Source: Chlorobiota bacterium
GTDB taxonomy: Bacteria > Bacteroidota > Bacteroidia > Flavobacteriales > Flavobacteriaceae
Length of the DNA stretch: 39,163 nt
Direction: 5' to 3'
Assembly: GCA_013153605.1 (NCBI GenBank)
Contig: JAADED010000077.1
Span: 1-39,163 of the forward strand
In this document: one piece after another, positions 29,341 through 33,702 of the stretch
How the letters are laid out: the number at the start of each line of letters is the position of its first letter
Numbering within the stretch: the first letter of the stretch is position 1
Translations under genes and position numbers: made by a program
Notes under the pieces: model-generated
The model's input: only the letters and a program-made list of their open reading frames with translations
The model's database searches: none
Told to the model about the DNA's origin: nothing

Positions 29341-29913
29341 TTACGAACGATGCACTTCGCTTCGATTCCATTTGGCGGCCAGCGCCCGATAGGAAGTTTC
29401 GCGGTCGGGACGGGGGCGTCCGTAATAATGATCTGTCCACCGCCACCCTTTCATGTCCCGATTGACGCCGTAGAGGGGATCCAAAAAGCACACTTCGAAC
29501 AACAGGGTTTGAAACCGGGCCAACCATTGCTCTCTTTGGGGCCTGTCTTGGATGTAAGCCTTCAGGAACCGTTCCCGACCCGAAGCATCCGTTTGCCAAA
29601 ATCCCGCTTCGCGCGCACGGGCGCGAAAAGCGGCCAGTCCTCTTCGCAACAAACGTTTGGACCGCTCCGGCACACGGGGATCCGATAAATAGTCCTGCAA
29701 ATAACCGGGTAATCCCGCTTCTTTCCAGTCGCGCCAGGGGATATGGTCGGGCGGACAGGCGGCTTCGGCCACGGCAAGCCACCAGCGTATGCTTTGGTCC
29801 TCCTGTTCCGAGGAACGGCAGGCATGCAAAAAAGGGGGCAGGGTCCACCACAAGGTCCCCGCCCCTAACCAGCGAATAAATCTTCGTCGCGAAATTTTGG
29901 GTATGCCTCGCAT
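29341..29913 (-). CDS. Gluconate 2-dehydrogenase subunit 3-like Tat-exported protein (190 aa)
   Basis: The N-terminus SRRRFIRWLGAGTL is a twin-arginine signal, followed by a possible lipobox-like LHAC. The mature part matches the gluconate-2-dehydrogenase subunit 3 family in outline: an early WWLAVAEAACPPD, then helical sequence, then the end region LDPLYGVNRDMKGWRWTDH. In known enzymes this small subunit accompanies a GMC-type flavoprotein and a cytochrome c. Neither is in the window, so this is an orphan. The ATG at 29913 is chosen because it begins the signal; the open frame runs further upstream into the EF-hand gene. Only 7 bases separate it from the EF-hand gene stop, so both are probably co-transcribed. 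Confidence 0.78.
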   Translation of the reverse strand: MRGIPKISRRRFIRWLGAGTLWWTLPPFLHACRSSEQEDQSIRWWLAVAEAACPPDHIPWRDWKEAGLPGYLQDYLSDPRVPERSKRLLRRGLAAFRARAREAGFWQTDASGRERFLKAYIQDRPQREQWLARFQTLLFEVCFLDPLYGVNRDMKGWRWTDHYYGRPRPDRETSYRALAAKWNRSEVHRS

Positions 29914-29920
29914 AAAAGCC

Positions 29921-30481
29921 TCAGCCGGCACCTCCGCACTTACCGCCTCCGCATTTGCCCTCACCGCATTTGCCGGACTTGCCCCCGGCTTTGACTTCCT
30001 TGAATTCCTCCCAAGTGACGAATCCGTCGTCGTTGAGGTCAAATTCTTCGAACATTTTTTCATGACCTTTGGCAAACTCTTCGGGACTTACGTATCCGTC
30101 GCCGTCGGTGTCGAATTCTTCGGCCTTGCCGCATTCGTCTTTATCGAGCTTGCCGTCTTTGTTTTTGTCCTTTTCGGGGAATTCCTTCTCGAAATGGGCG
30201 GTAAATTCGGCTTTATCGAACTTGCCGTCGCCGTTGGTATCGATGGATTCGAAATGGGCTTTCAGCTTTTTGAGCTTGCGCGCATTTTTGTTTTCGTAGG
30301 CTTCGTCTTCTTCATGTTCTTCGGCTTCACGGGCTTCGCTTTCTTCATGCGCTTTCTCCACACGTTCGCTTTCGGCTTCCTTATGCGATTCCTTTTCTCC
30401 GCCGCCGTTACACGAAGCGGCCAAAATCCATAATCCCCAAACCATGAGGAAAATCCACAATGTCGATTGCACTTTTTTCAT
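29921..30481 (-). CDS. EF-hand lipoprotein with C-terminal repeated KCG motif (186 aa)
   Basis: The signal peptide ends in LAASC (Cys24), so the mature protein is probably lipid-anchored. A very charged Glu/Lys linker (about 29-70) leads to four EF-hand loops with good calcium ligands: DTNGDGKFDKAE (81-92), DKNKDGKLDKDE (105-116), DTDGDGYVSPEE (124-135) and DLNDDGFVTWEE (148-159). The last 16 residues are KCGEGKCGGGKCGGAG, three cysteines spaced exactly five apart (172, 177, 182). This tail resembles the EGKCG repeats of copper-related modified peptides (HvfA type), but no modifying enzyme is in the window. The gene has its own promoter with a palindrome and is followed by the Tat protein gene. 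Confidence 0.85.
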   Translation of the reverse strand: MKKVQSTLWIFLMVWGLWILAASCNGGGEKESHKEAESERVEKAHEESEAREAEEHEEDEAYENKNARKLKKLKAHFESIDTNGDGKFDKAEFTAHFEKEFPEKDKNKDGKLDKDECGKAEEFDTDGDGYVSPEEFAKGHEKMFEEFDLNDDGFVTWEEFKEVKAGGKSGKCGEGKCGGGKCGGAG

Positions 30482-32682: not shown

Positions 32683-33609
32683 TTAATGCGTGTCGGCGTC
32701 CAGGTAGTTGGGTATGCCGTCGCCGTCGTCATCGTCGTTGGTCGGGTCGCCGTCACCGTTGGTGTCCTCGTATTTGGTGAGCAATCCGTCGCCGTCGTCA
32801 TCGGGATCCACGTAATCGGGGTGGGCGGGAATCCCGTATTTTTCTTCCAATTCCTTGTCGGTGTTGTCGTCGGTGGGGTCGCCGTTGCCGTTAAGATCTT
32901 CCAATACGTTGGGCACAAGATCATCGTCCAAATCGGTATTGACCACCAGCGTGCGGAAGTGCACGATCACGGGCGAGTAAGAAGACAACAAGGCCCCCGA
33001 TTCGCCCATAAACGCCAAATCGAATTGGGCCAGGCCCGAAGGCAGGAAAGCCACTCCCACACCCTTGCCTTCGAAAGTAACCGTCCCGTCGGGATTGGGG
33101 GTATAGGTACCACCTCGGAATTGAGGCAATACTTTGCGCAAACCCACCAGTCGTATGCCCGCCGAAGGATACCAGACGTTCATCCATACGGGCGAGAGTT
33201 CCGTGCGTTTGAAGACGGTTTCCAAATCGAAATTTTGGATTTCCACAGCCGCCAACACGTGGTCGGTGGTGGTGATGGAATCGGCGGTGCCGGGGGTTAC
33301 CGAAAGGTAATAAATGTCATACACCACCTCTTCGTCTTCGGGATCTTCCATTTGCACCACCAGGGCGTCGTCATACAAAGTGCGCTGGCCGGCATGCCGC
33401 ACCGGCTCGATAATCACCTTGCCGTAGGCATCCACGATGTAGGTATGGGTTTGCAAAAATTGAAGAATGGAATCCTTTTCGGCGGCATATTGTTCGGCCC
33501 TGTCGCGAGGCGTATATTCGATAAAAGGATCCTCCTTTTTACAAGTGGATGCCATAAAAAGAAGGACGAGGGATACAATGATCCCCCGTCGCCAATATTT
33601 GGATTTCAT
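32683..33609 (-). CDS. FKBP-like lipoprotein with calcium-binding C-terminal repeats (308 aa)
   Basis: This is a lipid-anchored protein (lipobox MASTC, Cys23) related to a Bacteroidota group annotated as FKBP-type peptidyl-prolyl isomerases. The central region (about 90-235) has family pieces YDIYYLSVTPGTADS, SPVWMNVWYPSAG, GGTYTPNPDGTVTF and GVGVAFLPSGLAQFD. The last 75 residues are Asp-rich thrombospondin type 3-like repeats (NTDLDDDLVPN, DPDDDGDGLLTKYED, DDDDGDGIPNYLDAD) that should bind calcium. The open frame extends 20 codons upstream, but the signal peptide sets the start at 33609. Isomerase activity is uncertain because the fold is divergent. It precedes pta by 12 bases, with a near-match -7 box (TACTTTAG) upstream. 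Confidence 0.82.
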   Translation of the reverse strand: MKSKYWRRGIIVSLVLLFMASTCKKEDPFIEYTPRDRAEQYAAEKDSILQFLQTHTYIVDAYGKVIIEPVRHAGQRTLYDDALVVQMEDPEDEEVVYDIYYLSVTPGTADSITTTDHVLAAVEIQNFDLETVFKRTELSPVWMNVWYPSAGIRLVGLRKVLPQFRGGTYTPNPDGTVTFEGKGVGVAFLPSGLAQFDLAFMGESGALLSSYSPVIVHFRTLVVNTDLDDDLVPNVLEDLNGNGDPTDDNTDKELEEKYGIPAHPDYVDPDDDGDGLLTKYEDTNGDGDPTNDDDDGDGIPNYLDADTH

Positions 33610-33702
33610 ATGCTTTTTGCGTCCTAAAGTATTAATAGTGTATTCTCTTTCATATTGATCGTCCATCATCTCCCCTCTCCACAGCCAAAAAATAGGGTAT
33701 AC

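Follow-up and report, generated by a model that had tools for sequence, protein, structure and literature searches.

The window, the whole 39,163-nucleotide stretch of DNA that was analysed, contains on its minus strand an open reading frame (29921-30481) for a predicted EF-hand lipoprotein of 186 amino acids. Reading of the sequence identified a signal peptide with a lipobox-like cysteine (residues 1-24; 30410-30481), four EF-hand loops of 12 residues each (residues 81-92, 105-116, 124-135 and 148-159; 30206-30241, 30134-30169, 30077-30112 and 30005-30040, respectively) and a 16-residue C-terminal thiol tail, KCGEGKCGGGKCGGAG (residues 171-186; 29924-29971), all on the minus strand. Pfam matched EF-hand_5 (PF13202, E=5.3e-19), and EF-hand_1, _6, _7 and _8 also matched. 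The four loops and the tail with three cysteines five residues apart (Cys172, Cys177 and Cys182), both noted in the initial annotation, were thus confirmed. Cys24, which lies in the sequence AASC, a plausible, non-ideal lipobox by eye, is invariant in all eight genus orthologues described below, as is Cys117, which directly follows loop 2. Two known EF-hand types were considered and rejected. Lanmodulin is marked by loop prolines; these are absent here, and NF053806, the lanmodulin profile, reached 28.4 bits where its cut-off is 135. The score of 44.9 for XopAW, against a cut-off of 120, was taken as generic EF-hand similarity.

A structure model predicted from three sequences had a mean pLDDT of 69.9. 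The EF-hand core was modelled with confidence (pLDDT of 87-92 for ten-residue blocks from residues 71 to 160) and a long helix was predicted for residues 32-80, while the tail was predicted to be disordered (pLDDT <50 for residues 167-186).

The stop codon of the EF-hand gene is separated by 7 bases from a downstream gene on the same strand (29341-29913, minus strand) that encodes a Tat-like signal with a cysteine and a borderline match to Gluconate_2-dh3 (PF13618, 24.0 bits for a cut-off of 23.4). A gene whose Tat-like start is similar, as judged by eye, lies 3' of the EF-hand orthologue in five of the six congeners in which the position is visible; it is missing in G496, and the contig of G491 stops there. 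The one congener copy examined with PF13618 (G494) gave no match. No copper gene is located beside the EF-hand gene, which counts against the reading of its tail as a copper tag. Elsewhere in the window, a lipoprotein-like open reading frame (32683-33669, minus strand) ends in Asp-rich DDDGDG repeats that by eye have a calcium-binding, thrombospondin type 3-like appearance.

Conservation and distribution of the tail

Orthologues of the EF-hand lipoprotein were sought with the whole protein in 60 relatives. Matches with E <1e-30 were found in the window's genome and in seven of eight congeners, the latter at 45-54% identity; G495 yielded no match. All eight of these orthologues keep the tail at the C-terminal end. 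The initial description of an envelope protein, predicted to be a lipoprotein, that combines EF-hands with a thiol tail is thus supported. In the alignment, 11 of 13 columns of the core tail are invariant, compared with 30 of the 144 ungapped columns outside this core (Fisher p=6.5e-6). Comparison of tail codons for 28 sequence pairs at 11 fixed positions gave 174 identical codons, 134 synonymous differences and 0 non-synonymous differences, the zero being built in because the 11 positions were selected for invariance. The informative part of this comparison is the synonymous turnover behind a constant protein sequence, and together with retention of the tail in 8/8 orthologues it indicates that the tail is under selection. 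Two further EF-hand lipoprotein-like genes in G496 have no tail, which is therefore not general to EF-hand proteins in this lineage.

The motif KCGEGKC was present in 8 of 395 sampled Bacteroidota genomes and its reversed control in none; given also its retention among the orthologues, the tail is beyond chance. The related pattern KCGxGKCG occurred in 13/395 Flavobacteriales genomes, including the window's genome. The others comprised three genomes of another Flavobacteriales family, f56 (G499, G513 and G523); five with the motif in HvfA-like genes, namely G111, which contains PF05114, and G503, G568, G665 and G764, in which these genes have MNIO-like neighbours by eye; and four with an internal reductase motif (G505, G517, G527 and G534). 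A looser pattern matched in 119 of 395 Bacteroidota genomes, with the reversed control in 11 genomes among the matches listed. At 30 listed loci, 26 frames contained the motif, of which 23 carried the reductase motif, one was the NosL protein of the window's genome and two were short; at 12 additional places, two frames contained it, one internally and one in a frame of 56 amino acids. Among the loci read, no other tailed NosL, CxxCH or CusB-type protein was seen outside the genus and G513. Two candidate tails were discarded: MKCG[VIL]GKCGRC lies inside what is, by eye, an FAD/NAD-type reductase, and G495:C96 is a 63-amino-acid frame that overlaps longer frames.

The tail on NosL and other exported proteins

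The tail also ends other envelope proteins, an unexpected result that goes beyond the single-sequence view of the initial annotation. The NosL protein of the window's genome (contig 68), which was found with PF05573 and thus independently of the tail, ends in KCAPGKCGGGGKCG. Its PF05573 score was 21.4 bits for a cut-off of 24. Its gene belongs to a nos operon, in which NosD was identified with PF05048 (131.4 bits) and the remaining genes were named by eye. Reading of frames showed the same tail at the end of NosL-like lipoproteins in G491, G492, G495, G496, G497 and G498, that of G491 scoring 24.3 bits with PF05573 in a frame that included its neighbours. Both genus NosL proteins found by the tail-independent route (from the window's genome, G000, and from G491) are tailed; the other five are known through the tail pattern only, because PF05573 missed them. 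The tailed NosL proteins contain the motif CXXCXM, and their ends align on a common MKC..GKC..GKCG ending, including that of a tailed NosL from G513 of family f56 that is 27% identical to the NosL of the window's genome. Only one of two f56 NosL proteins is tailed, which counts against the tag reading set out below. In 32 other Flavobacteriaceae genomes, the last 25 residues of NosL contain no cysteine. We rejected the idea that the tail was recently copied from one gene to another: within a single genome, the EF-hand and NosL tails are encoded by DNA that, compared by eye, differs at synonymous sites. NosL is reported to bind Cu(I) with an affinity in the attomolar range, and CXXCXM is described for clade II NosL proteins (PMC6530538).

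The search behind these frames used the pattern CGxGKCG in 11 genomes; the reversed control matched once, in G492. In G493, G496, G497 and G498, the same kind of tail, with two or more cysteines, ends a CxxCH protein, which was named cytochrome c-like from this motif alone and for which Pfam gave no match and NCBIfam only weak ones. This protein was matched in eight of nine genus genomes. Its copy in G492 has a single KCG within a His/Arg-rich end, and the Cys tail is missing in three of the eight (G000, G491 and G494), with G494 ending His-rich. The copy in the window's genome (contig 31, L179:6985-7569) has a His/Met/Arg-rich end. The alternation of Cys-, His- and Met-rich ends, although seen in few sequences, is more easily reconciled with metal binding than with a single recognising enzyme. 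Outside the genus, the CxxCH search matched 16 genomes, and none of the 14 C-termini read has a cysteine in its last 30 residues; several of these matches are longer proteins whose ends are not strictly comparable.

A CusB-type adaptor is tailed in G491, one of nine genus genomes. It matched HlyD_D23 (208 bits) and the heavy-metal-binding domain (45.4 bits), and its gene has a multicopper oxidase gene on one side and, by eye, a TolC-like gene on the other. A second tailed EF-hand protein is present in G498, and G497 has a fragment of it where a contig begins, followed by DoxX (L094:57-742; PF07681, 67.8 bits). DoxX is a usual companion of bufferin genes; none was seen beside the G498 copy (L086). 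In G513, an EF-hand protein (L102:6280-6726) carries KCG units at both its N- and C-terminal ends. Whole-protein homology to f56 EF-hand proteins is not claimed, given that BLASTP yielded short matches only, the best (E=0.001) within the tail itself.

MNIO genes and readings of the tail

EGKCG-type cysteines are taken as a mark of MNIO-modified metallophores, and the initial annotation had proposed that the protein could be modified or metal-binding. The window's genome, a 96%-complete draft of 1.62 Mb in 97 contigs, gave 0 matches for either PF05114 (MNIO) or DUF2063 (PF09836). Of the outcomes that the initial annotation named as refuting, a genome lacking MNIO was thus observed as far as a draft of this completeness allows, whereas loss of the tail in close homologues was contradicted by its strong conservation. 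Nor did the tail co-occur with MNIO genes across the genus, with PF05114 absent from all nine draft genomes (80-98% completeness). In contrast, a profile search of 18 genomes found PF05114 in 7/7 Bacteroidota genomes that have KCGEGKC in HvfA-type proteins, the type being judged by eye and confirmed for one protein (NF050137, 57.1 bits). Modification of the tail by an MNIO-type enzyme is therefore unlikely. The HvfA profile NF050137 scored 11.6 bits for the tail alone, below its cut-off of 19.5, did not match the whole EF-hand lipoprotein up to E=0.1, and gave 15.0-18.4 bits or no match for the other tailed genus proteins. MNIO modification was accordingly dropped as the leading idea, and metal binding, the other half of the proposal, stays plausible. 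Cases without MNIO are known but uncommon: a published survey counts 67 of 2583 genomes as carrying Buf_EGKCG precursors but no MNIO gene (PMC12452194). PF05114 is also absent from G499 and G513 of family f56. In G499, a 99%-complete genome, an HvfA-like gene lies between a sigma-factor-like gene and DoxX (L104:6934-7861), and in its congener G523 the HvfA-like gene adjoins an MNIO-like gene (named by eye).

The reading that we prefer, and to which we give an even chance, is that the tail is a short C-terminal thiol tag on several exported proteins, most likely unmodified, that binds a soft metal, Cu(I) or one like it, outside the cytoplasm. The tag would be flexible, would consist of about three KCG units spaced by five residues, and would have been added to the C-termini of unrelated exported proteins in one Flavobacteriales genus: the EF-hand lipoprotein, NosL, the CxxCH protein, the second EF-hand protein and one CusB-type efflux adaptor. 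Each carrier would thereby possess a local site at which copper could be buffered or handed on, and the EF-hand lipoprotein would be anchored in the envelope and combine calcium binding with such a site, with a role such as envelope buffering. In favour of this reading we count the conservation of the tail and its recurrence on several families, the absence of PF05114 from the genus genomes, the NosL proteins without C-terminal cysteines in 32 other Flavobacteriaceae genomes and the varying ends of the CxxCH protein. Against it stand the single genome with a tailed CusB-type adaptor, the CxxCH protein with no Pfam match and with no Cys tail in three genomes, and the discovery of most tailed NosL proteins through the tail pattern itself. 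Family or context links two of the tailed families to copper, NosL through its nos operons and the CusB-type adaptor through its multicopper oxidase neighbour; metal binding by the tail, the choice of metal, the unmodified cysteines and the handover role are what we infer. A more far-reaching version, in which the KCG tag serves as a common relay and copper passes between tagged envelope proteins through unmodified Cu(I)-thiolate tails, possibly derived from HvfA after loss of MNIO, seems doubtful to us.

Of the rival explanations, it is unlikely that the tail acts as a signal for sorting, anchoring or disulphide cross-linking rather than as a metal site. That the tail forms the very end of several exported proteins of differing fold, and is predicted to be disordered in the EF-hand protein, is consistent with such a signal. 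Known C-terminal sorting signals, however, have a hydrophobic stretch, which the tail lacks, and the presence of two copper-protein families among the carriers also speaks against this idea. Less probable again is that the tail is the substrate tag of a different, unrecognised modifying enzyme: one short sequence common to unrelated proteins does look like a recognition tag, but the variable ends of the CxxCH protein fit metal binding better, and no candidate enzyme was found in a search that covered MNIO and DUF2063. We regard it as very improbable that the tail is a neutral or decaying remnant left by an HvfA-type precursor once its MNIO gene had been lost; the HvfA-like genes of G499, without PF05114, and of G523, beside an MNIO-like gene, would suit such a history, whereas purifying selection on the tail codons argues against neutrality, and the tail persists at the level of identity seen among the orthologues and is present on several families. 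Least credible of all is that an MNIO enzyme, absent from the assemblies or provided by a different organism, converts the tail to a thiooxazole-type metallophore. In favour of this, the KCGEGKCG units share the EGKCG context with HvfA-type precursors, and the window tail has three cysteines where modification of the FonA model substrate needed two repeats (PMC13097082); the PF05114, DUF2063 and NF050137 results all stand against it.

In this lineage, EGKCG-type units are kept under selection in genomes in which no MNIO gene was found, and one of the proteins that bear them is the copper chaperone of nitrous oxide reductase. Should the unmodified tails bind Cu(I), motif-based mining for metallophores would need a caveat, and short thiol tags would represent a testable route by which envelope proteins acquire a site for metal buffering or handover.

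Comparison with known systems

The combination of EF-hands with EGKCG units is itself not new, given that fusions with a short EGKCG domain ahead of two EF-hands, linked to MNIO, have been published (PMC12452194) and that EfhP is reported to have four EGKCG repeats (PMC11559002). Like the Buf_EGKCG|EF-hand_5 chimaeras, the window protein is exported and joins EF-hand_5 domains with EGKCG-type units. Its tail, however, is C-terminal to four EF-hand loops rather than N-terminal to two, and, in contrast to the MNIO-tied chimaeras, it is a predicted lipoprotein in a genome without a PF05114 match. The G513 EF-hand protein, with units at both ends, is intermediate between those chimaeras, with their N-terminal units, and the window protein, with its C-terminal tail.

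EGKCG peptides bind copper after modification by MNIO (PMC13097082); in FonA, the modification of two repeats corresponds to a mass loss of 8 Da, about 4 Da for each site. The window tail shares KCGxGKCG units with the HvfA-type precursors, or oxazolin/captophorins, of that source (NF050137 and NF050188) and differs from them in being short and below the NF050137 cut-off, in ending a folded protein and in lacking MNIO. Cysteine metallophore modules are likewise joined to exported or membrane domains where bufferins are fused to cytochrome c or MerC; these fusions use DUF2282 or Buf2 domains (PMC12452194), whereas here KCG units are found on NosL, CusB-type, EF-hand and CxxCH proteins. The tailed NosL proteins resemble clade II NosL in their nos operons and CXXCXM motif and differ from the NosL described there (PMC6530538) in bearing an additional KCG tail.

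In the open-licence literature we found no description of the KCG tail, nor of NosL or any other copper lipoprotein that ends in a Cys tail. As far as that literature shows, retention of the tail with no detectable MNIO gene is new, as are the C-terminal position of the KCG tail on an EF-hand protein and the sharing of one short tail over several families that include NosL and a CusB-type adaptor.
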